64,000 nucleotides of DNA, from positions 1-64,000 of the forward strand of contig NZ_FNBH01000005.1 of the NCBI RefSeq assembly GCF_900102265.1. The letters run 5' to 3'. The translations under genes and the position numbers were made by a program. The notes under the pieces were generated by a model. It made no database searches and was not told the DNA's origin. It saw only the letters and a program-made list of their open reading frames with translations. This DNA is from Epilithonimonas hungarica. Its GTDB lineage: Bacteria > Bacteroidota > Bacteroidia > Flavobacteriales > Weeksellaceae. Positions 27,084 through 48,910 of this stretch are shown piece after piece; the stretch's first letter is position 1; each line of letters opens with the position of its first letter.

Positions 27084-28877
27084 GTGAATCCCAACTTAGA
27101 ACTTCAACTCAAAACCCTTCCTTCAGAACCTGGCGTCTATCGATATTATGATAAGAACGACCAGCTTTTGTATGTGGGAAAAGCAAAGCAACTCAATAAA
27201 AGAGTTCTTTCTTATTTCAACAAAAATCTTTCCGGTTATCGTACAAGGATCATGGTTTCTAAGATACACAGATTGGAAACAACTGTTGTAAATAGTGAAT
27301 ATGACGCTCTTTTGTTAGAAAACAATCTGATAAAAGAACACCAGCCGTTTTACAATGTGATGCTGAAAGACGACAAATCCTACCCGTGGATCTGCATCAA
27401 GAATGAAGATTTTCCAAGAATCTTTCTTACACGAACAAAAATAAAAGATGGTTCCGAATATTTTGGACCTTACGCCAAGGTAAGACCTGCAAGAATTCTT
27501 CTGGACACGATTAAAAATCTATATAAAATAAGAACCTGCAACCTGAATCTTGCTCCTGAAAAAATCGCTGAAGGAAAATACCGCGTTTGCCTGGAGTATC
27601 ATATCAAAAACTGTAACGGACCTTGCGAAGACCTAGAATCCAAAGAAGATTATGATGAAAAAGTAGAAGCGATCCGAGGAATTATCAAAGGCGATTTCCG
27701 TTACGCTAAGAAATATCTGGAGGACAGAATGTATCGTTTTGCTGCAAACCTGGAATTTGAAAAAGCTCAGATGATAAAGCAGAATATCGAATCTCTGGAT
27801 GATTATCAAGCAAAACATACGGTTGTGAATCCTAGTATTGATGATGTGGATGTTTTCGGGATGACAAGCGATGAAACGGCGGCTTATGTCAATTATTTTA
27901 AAATCAGGAATGGTTCGATTGTTCAGAGTTTTACAACAGAAATCAAGAAAGTTCTTGAGGAAACAGATGAGGATATTTTGGAAGAAGCGATTATCGAAAT
28001 TCGTCAGAAATTTTTATCTGAATCGAGAGAAATTTTGATTCCATTTCATTTGGGAATAGAAATCCCGAATGTGAAATTGATCGTTCCAAAAGTCGGCGAC
28101 AAGAAAAGAATTGTAGAACTTTCTGAGAAAAATGCCAAAGAATACCGTCTTGAAAAGCTGAAACAAGTTCAAATTGTTGACCCGGAAAGACATACCAACC
28201 GGATAATGGCAGAGATGCAAAAACTCTTGCATATGCCCATAGAACCAAGACATATCGAAGGTTTTGACAACTCCAATATACAAGGAACTAATCCGGTTTC
28301 GGCTTGTGTCGTTTTCAAAGATGGGAAACCAAGCAAAGCAGATTACAGGATCTTCCATCCAAAAACCGTGGTTGGTCCGGATGATTTTAAAACGATGGAA
28401 GAAGTCATCTATCGTCGCTATAGAAGGTTGCTTGATGAAGGCGAACCTTTACCCCAATTGATTCTGATCGATGGTGGAAAAGGGCAATTGTCTTCCGCCG
28501 TCAAAAGTTTGAAATTACTCGGCCTTTATGGTAAAATCACGATTGTCGGGATTGCAAAACGCCTTGAGGAAATCTATTTTCCGGAAGATTCGATTCCATT
28601 ATATATTGACAAAAAAGCTGAAACGCTGAAAATCCTTCAGCGCGTGCGGGACGAAGCGCACCGATTTGGCGTAAAACATCATAGAACGAGAAGAAAAAAT
28701 TCGACGATAAAATCTGAGCTGGAAGAAATCCAAGGTGTTGGTCCGAAATCTGTTGAACAGCTTTTATCGAAACTGAAATCGGTTAAAAGGATCAAAGAGT
28801 CAGACCTGGCCACTTTGGAAGAAATTCTCGGAAAGTCTAAGGCAAAAATCGTTTGGGAGTTTTTTAATAAGAATTAA
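27084..28877 (+). CDS. uvrC: Excinuclease ABC subunit C
   Basis: The dual-incision nuclease of nucleotide excision repair. 597 residues: GIY-YIG domain first (PGVYRYYDKNDQLLYVGKA, about 16-35), UVR motif at about 205-240 (FEKAQMIKQNIESLD), the RNase H-like 5' nuclease domain (HIEGFDNSNIQGTNPVSACV, about 390; LILIDGGKGQLSSA), and a C-terminal helix-hairpin-helix pair (EIQGVGPKSVEQLL). Starts at GTG. Confidence 0.96.
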   Translation: MNPNLELQLKTLPSEPGVYRYYDKNDQLLYVGKAKQLNKRVLSYFNKNLSGYRTRIMVSKIHRLETTVVNSEYDALLLENNLIKEHQPFYNVMLKDDKSYPWICIKNEDFPRIFLTRTKIKDGSEYFGPYAKVRPARILLDTIKNLYKIRTCNLNLAPEKIAEGKYRVCLEYHIKNCNGPCEDLESKEDYDEKVEAIRGIIKGDFRYAKKYLEDRMYRFAANLEFEKAQMIKQNIESLDDYQAKHTVVNPSIDDVDVFGMTSDETAAYVNYFKIRNGSIVQSFTTEIKKVLEETDEDILEEAIIEIRQKFLSESREILIPFHLGIEIPNVKLIVPKVGDKKRIVELSEKNAKEYRLEKLKQVQIVDPERHTNRIMAEMQKLLHMPIEPRHIEGFDNSNIQGTNPVSACVVFKDGKPSKADYRIFHPKTVVGPDDFKTMEEVIYRRYRRLLDEGEPLPQLILIDGGKGQLSSAVKSLKLLGLYGKITIVGIAKRLEEIYFPEDSIPLYIDKKAETLKILQRVRDEAHRFGVKHHRTRRKNSTIKSELEEIQGVGPKSVEQLLSKLKSVKRIKESDLATLEEILGKSKAKIVWEFFNKN

Positions 28878-28878
28878 A

Positions 28879-28898
28879 GAGCACCTTACTTGGTGCTC
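28879..28898. terminator. Weak terminator hairpin after uvrC
   Basis: GAGCACC (28879-28885) pairs with GGTGCTC (28892-28898); only a loose AT tail follows. Confidence 0.5.
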
Positions 28899-28904
28899 CT
28901 GATA

Positions 28905-31697
28905 TTATTTTTTGATTACTTTTTTAGTTTCTATAAAATCATCCGTATATACTTTGACCAGATAAATACCAGAATTCAACCTTATAAAATCCAAATTATC
29001 AGACTTTGATTCAAATATTTTTACTCCAGAAAAATTATACACTTCTACTTTGTTTATTCTAGATGGACTTTGAATTTTTACATAGCTTGAAGTAGGATTA
29101 GGATAAACAGACATTGCTATCTTATCTTTTCCTTCTAAATTTTCAACTTGCAAATCAGGAAGTTGATCTATTGTATGCAGTTGTATGTATTCCGCTTTAT
29201 TGGTATAAGCAGAAAAATATAATGTATTGCCATCGCTTGCAATATTTTTAAAAGGAACAGCTAATACGGAATAATCCTCTTCAATGTTTGTATTACTATC
29301 TACAATATTTACATTAAATGACGTATTTATTCCTCCAAATCTTACTATTCTTGGATCAGACGTATTTAAAGTATATAAATAATTTTTACTACAAGCCATT
29401 TCATTCTCAGTAAGATTAGCAGAAAGATATGTAGTTCCAATAGTTGTCCCGTTACTTCTATATAGTCTATTATTGTGCAGTATGAACATATCATTGCCAC
29501 ATTTAGTCAAAACATTAGAGTCAGAATATGATGAAGATTCTGATAAATTGGTGCTTCCCAATGCTTTTACAAGAGCAGTTCCATTAATAGTACCGTCCGT
29601 TTTATAAAGGCTAATAGTTCCACTTTTAAATGTCAAAAAATATAATATCCCATCATTAACCAAAGAGTGGTTTGTAAAACTTGTATTGATATTTTTCAAT
29701 AGTGAAGTTCCGGCTTGCGTTCCATCTGAACTGTAAAGATCAACATATCCACTCTGAACATTAGTCGATTTATAAAAGACAATTTTTGAATTAATTACGC
29801 CTACAATCTTTAACATTTGGACACTTTCATTTGAGAAGTCAATCGCTTTTTTAGTATTTGTAACTGTTCCATCGGTCTTCCAGATTGACCAACGACTATT
29901 TTCATCCATAAAAGAAAAGTACAGGAAATCATCCAGCATATAACCATTGTTCAATTTAGAATAATAGTCATTACTATAAAATGGCATTTCTTTTAATAGA
30001 ACAGGAATCGAAGAGTTATTTTCCAAAAGGTAAACCTTTAGTTTGTCACTTTTCGTTACATAAACTACAGCTTGATCTTTAAAATTGTTGAAACTGATAA
30101 TCTCCTCTGTCACTGGGATAAATTTTGTATTGTCTTTGATCCCGTCAGACTTTATAAAACCATTGCTGTTATAATTGCTGTATGCATAGTAAAAATCTCC
30201 CACTTTCAAAGTTTTATCCACAGTTCCGATATTAGCCGTGAAATTACTTACTTGAGTTAATTCACCAGAATTAATAGACTTCTTGAATAATTGTTTTTGA
30301 CCTATCGAACTAGTACTCGCAATATAAAATAGACTATTGCCAATTTTCAGATAAGAAGAAAGGTAGCTATTATAGCTAAAATTAGTATCTATAGCCAGCT
30401 TATCTTCCTTGGTAAGTACATTGTATTTATAAAGCTCTCCGCCGTGTTCAGAAATCCCTGTTCCTGCCTGCCCATCTAATCCATAGAAAAAAATATTACC
30501 GTCTAGTTCTATATAATTACCATCCCAATAACCATTTCCAAAATTAATTTTTTTTGCATTGCTAGCATTTTCATCAGATATCCATATGCCACTGTTATAC
30601 TGCTCGGAAGATTTAAATATCAAATAATTTTTTTTACTTGATAACGTTGCGAAATCCAGATCAGAATCTTTCGTCGTAAGATTAGCCTGAACAGTATTCT
30701 CAGTACTACCATCTGTTTTCCAGATATTTAGATTGGTATCCAAATAAATTTCATCCTTGAATTTAAAAATCTTGGAAATAGTTTCTGTAAATGATTTTAC
30801 AATCTTTGTATTGGCCTGTGTTCCATCGCTGGACCACAAATTATTTTTAGAATCATAGAAAACTATTTTATCATTGACTACATCCCCATTTAAAGAAGAT
30901 ACATCATTAATTGGTATAATACTTTTCGTCCCAGCTTCTGTACCATCTGTACTCCATAAAGCTTTTATGCCATTATTTCGAGCCAAAAAAAACAATTGAT
31001 TTTGGAATTTTATCATCCCAAAATTAAGACTTGTCAAAGAAGAATCAGTAGCTTCAAAAACCTTGAATGGTTTTGTTCCTCCAACTGTTCCATCTGATTC
31101 CATTATGACATGTTGATTGTAATTATTCTCGGAATAGTAAAGCTTATTATTAAGGAAATAATATTGTGATTTGTAATTTTTACCAGTCAAAGCAATAGTC
31201 CCCGCAAATGTTCCGTCTGAAGACCACAATTGGTAATCTGTGACCACAAATAGTTTTTCTCCGTTGGTGAAAATATCTATATAAACATAAGCGGCAGAAG
31301 AGTTATATAATTGTTTTACAACTTTGGTTCCCTCCTCTGTTCCATCAGTAACCCATAATTGATTATTATTGTCGTTCAAATTGGTGCCTACAAAATAAAG
31401 CTTGCCTTTGAAATTGATTATAGGACTTTTGATTCGGCTGTAATAATTATTAAAGCTTTGTGCAAAATTTTTAAGTACTTTTGCTTTTCCAGAAGCTTCA
31501 TCATAAGACCACAGCTCATTTCCTCCAAATTCGTAAGGTCTATTTCCAGAAAAAATAATTTTCCCTTCATATTCTGCGATATAACTTGGGCTTCCACTTC
31601 CAGAATAGTTATGAGCTACTAATTTTGTATTAAGAATATTTTGTGCACTAGTCGTAATTGATAAAATCAAAACTAATAAAAGGTATATTTTTTTCAT
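28905..31697 (-). CDS. T9SS-secreted protein with ELWxxDGTxxGT repeats (copy 2)
   Basis: A 930-residue exported protein. It has a signal peptide (MKKIYLLLVLILSITTSAQ) and many repeats of the LWxTDGTxxGTxxVK type (for example QLWVTDGTEEGTKVVKQ, ALWSTDGTEAGTKSI, IWKTDGTVTNTKKA), which form a beta-propeller-like array. The last ~75 residues are a type A T9SS domain: MSVYPNPTSSYVKIQ, then GIYLVKVYTDDF ... KKVIKK. It should be secreted or fixed to the cell surface. It lies 2 bases after its paralogue upstream and is co-transcribed with it. Ligand unknown. Confidence 0.88.
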   Translation of the reverse strand: MKKIYLLLVLILSITTSAQNILNTKLVAHNYSGSGSPSYIAEYEGKIIFSGNRPYEFGGNELWSYDEASGKAKVLKNFAQSFNNYYSRIKSPIINFKGKLYFVGTNLNDNNNQLWVTDGTEEGTKVVKQLYNSSAAYVYIDIFTNGEKLFVVTDYQLWSSDGTFAGTIALTGKNYKSQYYFLNNKLYYSENNYNQHVIMESDGTVGGTKPFKVFEATDSSLTSLNFGMIKFQNQLFFLARNNGIKALWSTDGTEAGTKSIIPINDVSSLNGDVVNDKIVFYDSKNNLWSSDGTQANTKIVKSFTETISKIFKFKDEIYLDTNLNIWKTDGSTENTVQANLTTKDSDLDFATLSSKKNYLIFKSSEQYNSGIWISDENASNAKKINFGNGYWDGNYIELDGNIFFYGLDGQAGTGISEHGGELYKYNVLTKEDKLAIDTNFSYNSYLSSYLKIGNSLFYIASTSSIGQKQLFKKSINSGELTQVSNFTANIGTVDKTLKVGDFYYAYSNYNSNGFIKSDGIKDNTKFIPVTEEIISFNNFKDQAVVYVTKSDKLKVYLLENNSSIPVLLKEMPFYSNDYYSKLNNGYMLDDFLYFSFMDENSRWSIWKTDGTVTNTKKAIDFSNESVQMLKIVGVINSKIVFYKSTNVQSGYVDLYSSDGTQAGTSLLKNINTSFTNHSLVNDGILYFLTFKSGTISLYKTDGTINGTALVKALGSTNLSESSSYSDSNVLTKCGNDMFILHNNRLYRSNGTTIGTTYLSANLTENEMACSKNYLYTLNTSDPRIVRFGGINTSFNVNIVDSNTNIEEDYSVLAVPFKNIASDGNTLYFSAYTNKAEYIQLHTIDQLPDLQVENLEGKDKIAMSVYPNPTSSYVKIQSPSRINKVEVYNFSGVKIFESKSDNLDFIRLNSGIYLVKVYTDDFIETKKVIKK

Positions 31698-31699
31698 GA

Positions 31700-34486
31700 T
31701 TATTTCTTGATAACTTTTGAAGAATAAAGTTTTGTATTGGTTTTGACTTTGATAAAGAATATTCCTACAGGAAGTTCTTTTATACTTATACTAGAATTTT
31801 TAGATTCCAGAACTTTCTTACCAGCAATATCTATAATTTCGATGTGCTCAACTTTTTCGCTGTTATCGAGTTGTATATTGACTATATCATCCGTTGGATT
31901 TGGATAAATAATTATTCTTCTTTCGGATTTTGAAGTTTGAGACTCATTCGTGTTTAGTTCTTCAACAACATCTGTGATAAATAATTCTTGACCAGAGCTT
32001 TTATAATCCATAGAAAAGTGGAATTTTCCTTTATCGAAAAACAATTGTTCTAACGAATAATAACCAGTTAATGAGTTATCATTCACTTTAATTTGAATAG
32101 GTGTAAAATCGTCAGCGCTAGTCCCTTTTGTTTTTCCAAAAACATTATTTGCATTTTGAAAATAAAGTTCATTATTTAAACAAACATATGGCCTATTGTA
32201 TAGTAGAAAATTATTTAATTTAAATGTACCTATTTCAGTTCCATCAGTTCTGTAAAATAATGATGAACTACTGGAATCAGAAAAATAAGCAAAATTCCCA
32301 CACTTTATAGCTGTTTGTACATCAAAAAAAGGAAGAGTTGTAAGAACCGACGTTCCATTAGATGTACCATCTGTCATATATAACCTTTTGTTTACACCAT
32401 TATTAAGAATACTTGAAAATAAATAAACTTTATTATTGATAATAAAACTTGCATCAGCATCATATTTATCATTATTTTGGATTAATACGACATTATCACT
32501 TTCATCATTGATGGCATATAATCTATTAGGCACTGTATAATTAATAGTATTTTCTACAAAAAGCACCTTATTATTAATCTTATTTAGGAAAGTTCTATAG
32601 AAATAATAAGATTCCAAATCAATTATTTTTTTTGTGTTGACAACAGTTCCATCTGTTTTCCAGATTGATGTTGCATTGTTATCCATCATTTTAAGATAAA
32701 TTCCGGAGTTTGTTTTTATATAATCTTTCTTTGCACCTGAAGAATAATTTGAAGGGCTTTCAAAAATCAATGATAGATTTTCAGAAGAATTTTCCAGTGT
32801 CCAAAGTCTCATAAAACCGTGAAGTGAATTATACGATTTTATTAAAACCTTATTATCATTTAGAGAAATAAGCTCTAACAATCTTTCATTGTTGGGTAAA
32901 TTTATTTTTTTAGTATCATTTATACTTCCAGCGGTTCTATACAAAAAATTATCCTCCAAAAAATAATAAATGTAATTCCCCGATTTTTCTGAATCAAAAG
33001 CAGAAAAGAAATTATTATTAATATTAATATCAGAAAAATTACTTAACTGAACAATCTTATCATCTAAACCTTTTTTGAATATCTGTGCATAAAAACCTGC
33101 AGATGCAATAAAAAGAAGATTGTCATTCAGTTTCACAAAACTATTAGGCTTACTGTGAGCATTATAAAAAATTTCATTTTCTATTCCGGAAGATTTATCA
33201 TTGATATTATAATAGCAGAGTTCAGTATTTTTATAAACTGTATAAAAATCTACATAAGATTCTATATAGCCAGAAAAATAAAGTTTGTTATCTCTTTCTA
33301 CAAAACTTTTCTCATCATTATACTTGATCTTTGTTCTAGTGACTTCGTTACCATCATAAATATATACGAAAGAGTCTGTATTATTATCGAGTTGTTTCAA
33401 AACGAGAAAGTTTTGGTTAGACGATGTAGAAACAGTTTCTAGTTTTATCCCAAAATTATTACTTAAAATACTGACTTGGTCATTCTCATCAACCACATAA
33501 GTGTCAGTAGTCGTATTGATATATAATTTATTTTTAAAAGGAAAAATTGTTTTAATATTATTGATCTGACCACTAATAGATTTTGTACCATCTAAATTTC
33601 CGTCCGTTATCCAAAGACTATTATTAACAAAATAGAGCAGTTTATTTGTTATTGCATTTTCATAATCTGGTAGTTGATAGTTATATGAGATGTTTTGTAA
33701 AAAAATAGTCCCGTTAGAAGTTCCATCTGAAGTGTATAACCCTGGTGTTTGACTGACTCCCGCAGAAAAAACAATCTTACCATTCACAGTGTACAGTTTA
33801 TCATAATAAGTACCAACAGAAGAACCACTTCCCGGGTTTAGATCTTTTACTATTTGGGTTCCATTTTGAGTCCCATCTGAACTCCAAAGTTCCTGACCAT
33901 ACAGAGCAGAATTACCAAAAAAATAAACCTTATTATTCAGCGAAGTGAACTGATTATTGACTAATGTTACATTTGGAATTTTAATGGTTCCTTCAGTTGT
34001 ACCATCACTCACATAGATATTATTTCTATATGAGAAAAAAAGTTTATCCCCGATAGTTTTCCCGAATAAAGTATTTACATATGACGAATAAGTATCTTCA
34101 TTCAAATCTTTTACCTTAAAGGTATTATTCATATTCAAATCAGTGCACCATAGTTCAAGTTTACTATATGTGCCTTCTGCAAAAAAATAAACCTTACCAT
34201 TCAAATTATAAAATGAGCTTTTGATAATGCGACCAGGCGATGTATAGTCCTTTAAAAGTTCCGATTTCTGAGTATTGAAATTATATTTGTAGACCTCTCT
34301 CCCAAATGCGTTTCCAGCAGTTGAGAAGATTAGATCATTATCAAACAATTTCATTCCTCTTGGGTCTGAACCAGGAAAACGGTTTATTTCATTCAATTGA
34401 GAATTAATGACATTTTGAGCATTATGAAAAACAGAAAATAAAATGCACAAAAAGAGAATCGGTAGATGGTAGATTTTTTTCATCAT
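31700..34486 (-). CDS. T9SS-secreted protein with ELWxxDGTxxGT repeats (copy 1)
   Basis: A 928-residue paralogue of the next gene, with the same signal peptide, repeats (ELWSSDGTQNGTQIVKD, LYMTDGTSNGTSVLTT, LFYRTDGTEIGTFKL) and a type A T9SS domain (IIYPNPTDDIVNIQLD ... PVGIFFIKVKTN). It is the promoter-proximal gene of the pair. Its start region lies in one arm of a 25-bp perfect inverted repeat. The duplicate ATG (34486 or 34483) makes the start uncertain by one codon. Confidence 0.88.
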   Translation of the reverse strand: MMKKIYHLPILFLCILFSVFHNAQNVINSQLNEINRFPGSDPRGMKLFDNDLIFSTAGNAFGREVYKYNFNTQKSELLKDYTSPGRIIKSSFYNLNGKVYFFAEGTYSKLELWCTDLNMNNTFKVKDLNEDTYSSYVNTLFGKTIGDKLFFSYRNNIYVSDGTTEGTIKIPNVTLVNNQFTSLNNKVYFFGNSALYGQELWSSDGTQNGTQIVKDLNPGSGSSVGTYYDKLYTVNGKIVFSAGVSQTPGLYTSDGTSNGTIFLQNISYNYQLPDYENAITNKLLYFVNNSLWITDGNLDGTKSISGQINNIKTIFPFKNKLYINTTTDTYVVDENDQVSILSNNFGIKLETVSTSSNQNFLVLKQLDNNTDSFVYIYDGNEVTRTKIKYNDEKSFVERDNKLYFSGYIESYVDFYTVYKNTELCYYNINDKSSGIENEIFYNAHSKPNSFVKLNDNLLFIASAGFYAQIFKKGLDDKIVQLSNFSDININNNFFSAFDSEKSGNYIYYFLEDNFLYRTAGSINDTKKINLPNNERLLELISLNDNKVLIKSYNSLHGFMRLWTLENSSENLSLIFESPSNYSSGAKKDYIKTNSGIYLKMMDNNATSIWKTDGTVVNTKKIIDLESYYFYRTFLNKINNKVLFVENTINYTVPNRLYAINDESDNVVLIQNNDKYDADASFIINNKVYLFSSILNNGVNKRLYMTDGTSNGTSVLTTLPFFDVQTAIKCGNFAYFSDSSSSSLFYRTDGTEIGTFKLNNFLLYNRPYVCLNNELYFQNANNVFGKTKGTSADDFTPIQIKVNDNSLTGYYSLEQLFFDKGKFHFSMDYKSSGQELFITDVVEELNTNESQTSKSERRIIIYPNPTDDIVNIQLDNSEKVEHIEIIDIAGKKVLESKNSSISIKELPVGIFFIKVKTNTKLYSSKVIKK

Positions 34487-34542
34487 TGATTATTAGTTTT
34501 AATTTTCCGCAAAAATAAAAATTAAAACTAATAATCAATGAT
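34482..34542. repeat. 25-bp perfect inverted repeat overlapping a promoter and start codon
   Basis: Arms 34482-34506 and 34518-34542 are perfect inverted copies around an 11-base centre. The left arm begins in the start codon of the gene at 34486; its inner end reads AGTTTTAATTTT. The -7 box of the gene lies in the centre. Confidence 0.8.
34510..34538 (-). promoter_or_regulatory. Promoter of the ELWxxDGT gene pair, inside the inverted repeat
   Basis: Minus-strand TTG (34536-34538), 18 bp spacer, TATTTTTG (34510-34517), 23 bases before the ATG. The -33 lies in the right arm and the -7 in the centre of the palindrome. Confidence 0.6.
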
Positions 34543-34614
34543 TCTTTTAAAGATATATTAAACTTAATATAGATTTTGAATTTGTTTTTATTTAAAATTC
34601 TTCTCGGTAATTCT

Positions 34615-34622
34615 TATCTTTG
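34615..34622 (+). promoter_or_regulatory. -7 element of the small membrane protein gene
   Basis: TATCTTTG, 17 bases before the ATG. Confidence 0.5.
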
Positions 34623-34639
34623 CAACCTAAAATTTAAAA

Positions 34640-35206
34640 ATGAACAAATACATAAAATTTGTAATAGCGGCATTAATCATTATTGCAGGAGTGTTTCTTA
34701 TACTTAATAGGCAATGGGGTTGGGGAATTGTTTTAATCGTACTTTCTGCAATTCCTATCACACTTTTCTTCAAAAATGAAAATATCCTTTTGGCTTTCTG
34801 GCAATTGAGAAAACAAAATATGGAAAAAGCAGCGAAGTTTTTATCCAATATTACCAATTACAAATCTCAGCTTCATAAGAGCCAATACGGCTACTTCCAT
34901 TATCTGCAAGCTTTGACAACAGCTCAGGATAATCCACAAAAAACAGAAGGATTGATGAAAAAAGCTTTGGATTATGGTTTGAATATGAAGCACGACAGAG
35001 CAATGGCAAAATTGAATTTGGCGGCTTCTGCACTTTCAAAAGGAAGAAAAAATGAGGCTCAGAAACTTTTGGAAGAAGCAAAACAATTGGATTCTGCCGG
35101 GATGATGACCGACCAGATCAAAATGATGAAGGAACAACTGAAAATGCCAACGATGCAAAAACATATGCACAACCCAAACATGAGAAACAGAGGAAAATTC
35201 TTCTAG
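34640..35206 (+). CDS. Two-helix membrane protein with TPR-like domain
   Basis: A 188-residue protein with two N-terminal hydrophobic helices (FVIAALIIIAGVFLIL; WGIVLIVLSAIPITLFF) and a soluble helical part with TPR-like pairs (KAAKFLSNITNYKSQLHKS ... NEAQKLLEEAKQLD). The C-terminus is Met- and His-rich. I do not recognise a named family. It is widespread-looking rather than accessory and stands alone with its own promoter and terminator. Confidence 0.75.
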   Translation: MNKYIKFVIAALIIIAGVFLILNRQWGWGIVLIVLSAIPITLFFKNENILLAFWQLRKQNMEKAAKFLSNITNYKSQLHKSQYGYFHYLQALTTAQDNPQKTEGLMKKALDYGLNMKHDRAMAKLNLAASALSKGRKNEAQKLLEEAKQLDSAGMMTDQIKMMKEQLKMPTMQKHMHNPNMRNRGKFF

Positions 35207-35265: not shown

Positions 35266-37491
35266 TTATTCAACAATCAGCTTTTCAGAATAAGCTTTGT
35301 TATCGACCTCATATCTTAATAGATAAGTTCCTTTTGGATATTTGGAAACATTGATCTCCAGTTTTTTATCAGATGTGTTATTGATTGTCTGCAATAGTTT
35401 TCCTGTTAGATCATAAAGCAAAACTTTTGTCGGTTTAGCGTTTTCCCAGACCAAGTTCACAATATCTTTTGCAGGAATTGGATAAATACTAATTCCATTT
35501 TTCTTGAAAGATGCTACACCTAAAGTTTTAACTTCAATCGTTGCCTGATATGGTTTGAGGTTTTGCTTGGTTGCCGTGATCATCAATGATTCTCCATCAG
35601 CAATTCCACTTAAATCAAATACAACACTTCCATCTTTGCTATGTGCAGAACCAATTATATTACCATTTTTAGTCAAAGAAATGACCGCATCTGTCTCTTC
35701 GCAGGAAACAGTAAGAGTCTGCGTATTTGGATCAATCTGATCTGGATGCTGCAACTCCAGATCTTTGGTTGTATCATATCGGAAAACAACAGAAGGGTCA
35801 CCAAAAAGAACCCAGGTCTGCATGACCTCAACAGCTGTTGGCGAAGCATTATAACTTTCCAACATTCCTATTTGCGAGTTGTAAAACAACCCTCCAATCG
35901 TTTCTTTTTTATTGTTCTCATAAACTTCTGTAAGGATATTCGTCATCTCATCCTGCGTTTCCATAGGTTCTGCCCAAGCCATCAGAATCGTAGAAGCCGC
36001 TGTTGCAATAGAACCAGCTGGAGAATTGTTATAATTTACCGACATCAGATCTTCAGCAAGGCAAGTCTTTCCGACAAAAGTCCCATTATTACAAGCCACA
36101 GAGACCACAAAAGGATACATCCCGTTATTTTTCAGTTGTTTTACATATGTAGAAGTATAGTTTCCTGTTACCATTAGATTAAGGTCACCGTGTCCTGTGT
36201 AATTGAATAATCCAACGCCGGAATTCATTGCATTATTGATCATCGTTGGTGTTGGCTCTCCCGCAGTATCTTCACCACCTTGCGAACCTTGATAAAATTC
36301 ATAAACGTTTTGATAACCATAATTCTTCAATTGAGTTCTGATTTTTCTAAGATGTACATAATCCGCTTCTCCATCATTTCCATAACCATTCCCTTCATTA
36401 GAACCAATTCCGATAGCATTTTTCATCCAATCACCCGCAATAGGACTTTTCTCATACTCCAGAATTCTGTCTGTCATTGTTTTGATACCAACACTATTCC
36501 CAGATAATCTTCCTACGAAAGCTTCCGGATAATAATCATTTGTAAATTGCCCATAATAAGAATCACTCCAAAGCTGCTCCCCATTGTATCCATAAGTATG
36601 AGAAGGAACATCTCCGGAATCACCAACCAAAAGAATGTAGACCAAATTAGGATTGGTTTGGTAGAAATTGGTAATATAATTTTTAATAGCCGTATCTGTA
36701 GTTCCAGTAGTTGTCGTGTTCACAACTGTTGTTTTGATACCTTTTTCCCGTTTCCAGCTCACTAAAGAACTTAACTGACTTTCAAATGCAGGAGCTGTGA
36801 TAATTAACAGATCACCTTCTTCTTTAGCCGGAGCATATTTATTTGAAGTTATATGATTAAGATAATGTTTTGAATAGATATCATTGAAAAATGTATTATC
36901 TGCTTTTCTACTGGCAATTTCATTGGTTCCTTTCTTATCATTCAGCACAACTTCTACTCTCAGATTTTTATAGATTCTAAGTTTGTGTTGAACCGGATTG
37001 TATTGATAAGGAAAAAGTGAAAACGTAACACCTCTCGTATTTCTCAGAATGTGAGGATCTCCAAATTGAGCCAAATTTCCGGGAAAGAAATCATCCTTTT
37101 TATAACTCTCTCCAAAGACATACGGAATTGTTTCTGGGTCGGTATTTCTTTTTAGGTTTCCTTTAGACGGAGCGATGTCAATATTATTGATATCCTCATA
37201 ACTATCATATACTATTTTGTAACTGAAGTCTCCTTTCTCAGGAAGCTGAATGGATCTGGAGAAATATGGCATTGCAGGATTTCCCGCCTCGGACATCAGA
37301 ACAGAATATTGCTTGGAAAATGAATGATAGTTTTTCCCGTTGATACTTTTCTCTGTTTTTTCAAAATGACCGAGATCAAAATCAACAGTAATATTCTGAT
37401 TGTCAGAATTGATCAATTTGAAATCTTGCGCAAATGAGTTACCGGAAAGAAAAATCAATATTAAAGAAGAAAATAGTACATTTTTTCTCAT
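35266..37491 (-). CDS. C25 (gingipain-like) cysteine protease, T9SS-secreted
   Basis: A 741-residue secreted protease. A signal peptide (SGNSFAQ) precedes a C25 propeptide to about 215. In the caspase-like domain the catalytic His is in FNYTGHGDLNL and the Cys in SVACNNGTF, about residues 439 and 463. A DPSVVFRY segment closes the catalytic domain, an Ig-like domain follows, and the final ~75 residues are a type A T9SS domain (ISIYPIPAKDIVNL ... YLLRYEVDN). Known gingipain relatives process proteins at the surface; PorU-type sortases lack the sorting domain, so this is cargo, not sortase. Confidence 0.9.
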   Translation of the reverse strand: MRKNVLFSSLILIFLSGNSFAQDFKLINSDNQNITVDFDLGHFEKTEKSINGKNYHSFSKQYSVLMSEAGNPAMPYFSRSIQLPEKGDFSYKIVYDSYEDINNIDIAPSKGNLKRNTDPETIPYVFGESYKKDDFFPGNLAQFGDPHILRNTRGVTFSLFPYQYNPVQHKLRIYKNLRVEVVLNDKKGTNEIASRKADNTFFNDIYSKHYLNHITSNKYAPAKEEGDLLIITAPAFESQLSSLVSWKREKGIKTTVVNTTTTGTTDTAIKNYITNFYQTNPNLVYILLVGDSGDVPSHTYGYNGEQLWSDSYYGQFTNDYYPEAFVGRLSGNSVGIKTMTDRILEYEKSPIAGDWMKNAIGIGSNEGNGYGNDGEADYVHLRKIRTQLKNYGYQNVYEFYQGSQGGEDTAGEPTPTMINNAMNSGVGLFNYTGHGDLNLMVTGNYTSTYVKQLKNNGMYPFVVSVACNNGTFVGKTCLAEDLMSVNYNNSPAGSIATAASTILMAWAEPMETQDEMTNILTEVYENNKKETIGGLFYNSQIGMLESYNASPTAVEVMQTWVLFGDPSVVFRYDTTKDLELQHPDQIDPNTQTLTVSCEETDAVISLTKNGNIIGSAHSKDGSVVFDLSGIADGESLMITATKQNLKPYQATIEVKTLGVASFKKNGISIYPIPAKDIVNLVWENAKPTKVLLYDLTGKLLQTINNTSDKKLEINVSKYPKGTYLLRYEVDNKAYSEKLIVE

Positions 37492-37567
37492 AAGTTTTAT
37501 TTTTTTATCAAATATATAAATTTAAAGCTGATCAAGTTTATATATTTCAATAAAAAATAAAATTTAG

Positions 37568-48841: not shown

Positions 48842-48842
48842 T

Positions 48843-48889
48843 ATAAATGATTATTGATAAATGATTACAATTCATCAATAATCATTTAT
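48843..48889. repeat. 16-bp perfect hairpin between ndh and trmD
   Basis: Arms 48843-48858 and 48874-48889 (core AATGATTATTGAT) are perfect inverted copies. It resembles the palindrome at 38221. It could end ndh transcription, but has no T run. Confidence 0.65.
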
Positions 48890-48910
48890 CTCTTATCATT
48901 TATAAAAAAT

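Follow-up and report, generated by a model that had tools for sequence, protein, structure and literature searches.

Does a perfect inverted repeat wrapped around a promoter serve the gene behind it, or does it record how the DNA was once copied? We examined this for a palindrome in Epilithonimonas hungarica, located in a window of 64,000 nucleotides (the whole stretch of DNA analyzed, to which unprefixed positions refer). On the evidence assembled below, the palindrome looks like a fairly ordinary oddity, a mark left by faulty DNA copying and not a genetic switch.

The palindrome and the promoter that it encloses

The two arms were 25/25 complementary, 11 nt apart and 61 bases long overall with the centre included, and the palindrome ends there because the next outward pair (34481 c and 34543 t) is a mismatch (Table 1). 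The centre between the arms is CCGCAAAAATA, and the minus strand reads ATCATTGATTATTAGTTTTAATTTT-TATTTTTGCGG-AAAATTAAAACTAATAATCAATGAT, then GAAAAAAATC.

Table 1. Positions of the palindrome, the associated promoter elements and the neighboring genes in the window.
Feature	Position	Strand	Remarks
Left arm; mRNA leader and first start codon of gene 31700-34486	34482-34506	-	AAAATTAAAACTAATAATCAATGAT; 25/25 to right arm
11-base centre	34507-34517	-	reads TATTTTTGCGG on minus strand
Right arm; upstream of -7 box, with -33-like TTG	34518-34542	-	25/25 to left arm
-7 box TATTTTTG (TAnnTTTG consensus), putative	34510-34517	-	from sequence; kept in G020
ELWxxDGT repeat protein with T9SS type A sorting domain, 928 aa	31700-34486	-	TIGR04534 (5.8e-34), TIGR04183, PF18962
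Second ELWxxDGT/T9SS protein, 930 aa	28905-31697	-	2 bases downstream of gene 31700-34486
uvrC-like gene	27084-28877		named from its sequence; flanks the ELWxxDGT pair
Conserved 188-aa gene, divergent	34640-35206	+	flanks the ELWxxDGT pair on the other side
Separate -7 box TATCTTTG of gene 34640-35206	34615-34622	+	kept in nearly all genus relatives

TAnnTTTG is the -7 consensus of Bacteroidota (PMC6847099, PMC9723704), and a box of this type with its leader fits a Bacteroidota sigma-A type promoter. A -33-like TTG was found on the minus strand at 34536-34538, within the right arm and 18 bases upstream of the -7 box; the motif is weak, and the TTG gap peaks genome-wide at 19-21, with 18 just below. 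Transcripts of F. johnsoniae begin 4-5 bases past the -7 box (PMC6847099). By the same spacing, transcription here is predicted to begin near 34505-34506, within the first one or two bases of the left arm, for an expected leader of ∼20 nt. With its predicted start there, the mRNA would carry one arm only and no RNA hairpin is expected. The first ATG lies at 34484-34486, inside the left arm, and the ATG that aligns with the start of the orthologue lies at 34481-34483.

These positions agree with an earlier, sequence-only reading of the locus, which had described exact inverted arms, a -7 box within the 11-base centre, the -33 in one arm and the start codon in the other. Its view of the site as a promoter is supported by the -7 box and leader that are kept in the orthologue of G020, a genome of the same genus, and we infer promoter activity from these sequence features. 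The downstream operon that it mentioned is specified here as two genes (31700-34486 and 28905-31697), both on the minus strand and probably on one transcript. Among Epilithonimonas species, the content of the interval 27084-34640, from the uvrC-like gene to the 188-aa gene, varies: it may hold ELWxxDGT genes, a different secreted-protein gene, or nothing.

Rarity of the palindrome in its own genome

Order-3 Markov models of intergenic DNA, extrapolated to 25-bp arms, predicted between 5.5e-6 (all intergenic) and 8e-5 (AT-richest third) perfect repeats with arms of this length in the intergenic DNA of the genome. The palindrome is more than chance, and the earlier remark that 25 exact pairs would be very improbable was borne out by this expectation of ∼1e-5 to 1e-4. 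In most bacterial genomes inverted repeats are more frequent than expected, chiefly between genes (PMC4060949). A survey of 1.26 Mb of the genome, taken from stretches, identified 69 perfect inverted repeats (arms of at least 14, spacer up to 40), compared with ∼1 per simulated copy; most of them were terminators with spacers of 0-5 or belonged to a dispersed element. Within the surveyed 1.26 Mb, the promoter palindrome ranked second by arm length overall and first among the repeats that are not terminator-like.

The arm has no second copy in the genome; a search allowing 3 mismatches revealed no further site except one 18/21 match (C3:4712-4732), which fits the control pattern. A dispersed repeat or MITE was rejected because the arm is single-copy, and an intrinsic terminator was rejected because the site sits at the start of a gene, with divergent genes on its two sides and no gene ending there. 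An Rfam search of the palindrome returned sub-threshold chance matches only, arising from the hairpin. Palindromes centred on -7 boxes exhibited no general excess over the intergenic background: with arms of at least 10, there were 5 repeats in the central 10-bp bin versus 4-8 in most nearby upstream bins. Two other palindromes in the genome enclose TAnnTTTG boxes; they were scored in 11/13 and 23/23 loci examined across the genus and resemble terminators that belong to the preceding genes. Since these two are conserved, a functional palindrome at such a site should be recognizable by its conservation.

Several further repeats were recorded as observations in their own right. An AT-rich quasi-palindrome at 37491-37566 of the window (33-base arms, 85%, 10-base centre) spans from the stop codon of a glycine-transporter-family gene to the start codon of a C25-peptidase T9SS gene; in G016 (L196) it is retained or improved, and in G015 (L197) it has decayed. 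Nested inverted and direct copies of ATAAATGATTA occupy 48842-48904 of the window, between NADH-dehydrogenase-like and trmD-like genes. Perfect 22-base arms around a 12-base centre, not terminator-like, lie between divergent genes at L098 16501-16556 (G000:C1:496501-496556). A dispersed palindromic element with TTTGTCATTCCGTAGGAATCT ends, MITE- or REP-like, was located at G000:C1:167636, 221600, 479219 and 512631, at C6:141765 and in L056, and is also present in another genus.

Comparison with related genomes

Matches at E <= 1e-60 were obtained in 13 of 320 family genomes, this one included, and a close syntenic orthologue of gene 31700-34486 (74% protein identity) was present only in G020. 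The alignment with G020 keeps the -7 box, the coding start and a colinear leader that matches the left arm at 20/25 in exact register. The right arm is absent from the colinear G020 DNA, where any near register gave at most 12/25, the background level; in the global alignment the E. hungarica DNA is ∼17 bases longer exactly at the right arm. No inverted repeat was detected at the orthologous promoter of G020, no such palindrome was found at the gene start in the upstream regions of more distant orthologues, and no genus relative had a palindrome beside the 188-aa gene. The palindrome is thus conserved in neither G020 nor the other relatives, and an absence of conservation of the arms was one of the two outcomes that the sequence-only reading had set against its own proposals.

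An unrelated 18-base inverted repeat with one mismatch lies further upstream of the gene in a distant orthologue (L148 1351-1401). It links a T run resembling a -7 box with a ATGAAAAAA start that seems to have been given up, its score exceeded those of all 1500 simulated regions, and it is possibly an independent template switch.

In direct orientation, the right arm resembles a stretch by the same neighbor gene in G003, G014 and G021 (21 of 23 columns identical, the other two a gap and a mismatch; 0/300 local controls). Were this match homologous, the right arm might be the older of the two. Matches roughly as good were common in AT-rich DNA when searched genome-wide, and the stretch in these genomes precedes a different leftward gene, with no significant match in the flank past the arm. 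By local controls the match is significant, yet comparable ones turn up often genome-wide; the left arm (leader) is therefore likely, though not proven, to be the original and the right arm the copy.

Origin of the palindrome

We consider it rather probable that the palindrome is the mutational scar of a template-switch (quasipalindrome-type) mutation, sitting passively on a working promoter. During replication, the nascent strand would have folded back on itself and taken nearby DNA as template, thereby placing a second, inverted leader and start codon beyond the -7 box and replacing ∼8 bases by ∼25; in an alternative form of the event, the switch would have perfected an imperfect repeat. With its -7 box in the loop the promoter would survive, the new arm would happen to provide a TTG about where the -33 element sits, and the gene would then be expressed from an ordinary Bacteroidota promoter. 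Quasipalindrome template switching is established in E. coli, where it makes inverted repeats perfect (PMC7202029), and a perfect stem can arise in a single template-switch event (PMC8794818). A mutational origin is favored by a repeat that is perfect, single-copy and lineage-restricted, with one arm equal to a conserved leader. The locus holds a near-spaced perfect repeat beyond chance, and G020 (in one comparison) has the likely source arm and lacks its inverted copy. The copying event, its recency and the leader-to-upstream direction are what we infer from these sequences; a fold-back seed could not be reconstructed with certainty. It is doubtful that the event went further and turned the start-codon end of the leader into a new -33 (CAATG to CATTG), which would have rewired a secreted surface-protein operon.

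The sole informative orthologue shares 74% identity, so an older palindrome lost in G020 is conceivable. An imperfect inverted repeat might predate the split from G020 and have been perfected in E. hungarica by template switching, a known process of quasipalindrome correction, possibly without any function. The resemblance of the right arm to the stretch in G003, G014 and G021 speaks for such an ancestry, but the different leftward gene, the unmatched flank, the frequency of similar matches in AT-rich DNA and the lack of any trace of a second arm in G020 make us regard it as unlikely. Symmetry, together with a position across the -33, the -7 box and the leader, would suit a palindromic operator occupied by a repressor dimer or tetramer that spans the promoter from the -33 to the start codon. 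An operator is expected to recur or be conserved and this palindrome does neither, being single-copy apart from the one control-like 18/21 match and absent from the orthologue and distant relatives; moreover, 61 bp of perfect symmetry far exceeds what an operator needs. The repressor site put forward in the sequence-only reading is therefore unsupported, and we consider it distinctly unlikely. The same reading had suggested a cruciform, whose AT-rich hairpins would extrude under supercoiling, sequester the promoter arms and expose the -7 box in the loop as a sensitive switch. The palindrome strand does fold to the full 25-bp stem (-20.7 kcal/mol, z -12.6), but any perfect repeat of this length folds likewise and the palindrome is not conserved, so that the physically possible switch gains nothing from the folding and appears highly unlikely.

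Known invertons comprise an entire promoter fragment and depend on a recombinase, and the 11-bp centre is far smaller. With identical arms, a flip of this centre would leave a symmetric promoter, now aimed at gene 34640, and Bacteroides does use invertible promoters for surface molecules (PMC4747536). Gene 34640, however, has its own conserved promoter and does not need a flipped one, the arm is single-copy, and no PF00239 (resolvase-family) or PF00589 (phage-integrase-family) gene was found on C6, the contig that carries the palindrome. The genome holds one resolvase-family gene (on C9) and nine integrase-family genes, none of them on the palindrome's contig, and a recombinase could conceivably act on the site from a distance. 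The invertible segment of the sequence-only reading thus found no support and is barely credible. Fold-back chimeras also produce perfect inverted repeats, so that an artefact of assembly or library construction could in principle have created this one; the arms, however, flank just 11 bases within a 240-kb contig of an essentially complete, 12-contig genome, and the sequence runs on normally on either side, which renders an artefact extremely improbable.

If the template-switch reading is right, the palindrome offers a clean natural case in which a mutation of this type hit a bacterial promoter and left it intact, and it warns against taking every perfect palindrome across a promoter for a regulatory site. 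The locus might also help to find out whether template switches create new promoter elements.

The quasipalindrome mutations of E. coli lacZ and thyA (PMC7202029) resemble the proposed event in that fold-back copying creates or perfects short-spaced bacterial inverted repeats; those mutations were observed directly, whereas here the event is deduced from one orthologue and concerns a 25-bp arm around a promoter. Hairpins ascribed to template switching (PMC8794818) likewise consist of a perfect reverse-complement copy beside its source in one lineage, but they belong to RNA genes and were traced through many sequences and ancestral reconstruction, in contrast to a promoter, a single comparison and no expected RNA hairpin in the present case. 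The invertible promoters of Bacteroides fragilis (Mpi, Tsr19/BF2766; PMC4747536) share inverted repeats that flank a TAnnTTTG promoter of surface-molecule genes, and differ from the single E. hungarica site with its 11-bp centre, one known orientation and no recombinase on the contig. Within the same genome, the terminator-like repeats upstream of C1:158303 and C1:512152 are also perfect inverted repeats around TAnnTTTG; they are conserved in the genus and look like the ends of preceding genes, whereas the promoter palindrome lacks such conservation and lies where no gene ends.
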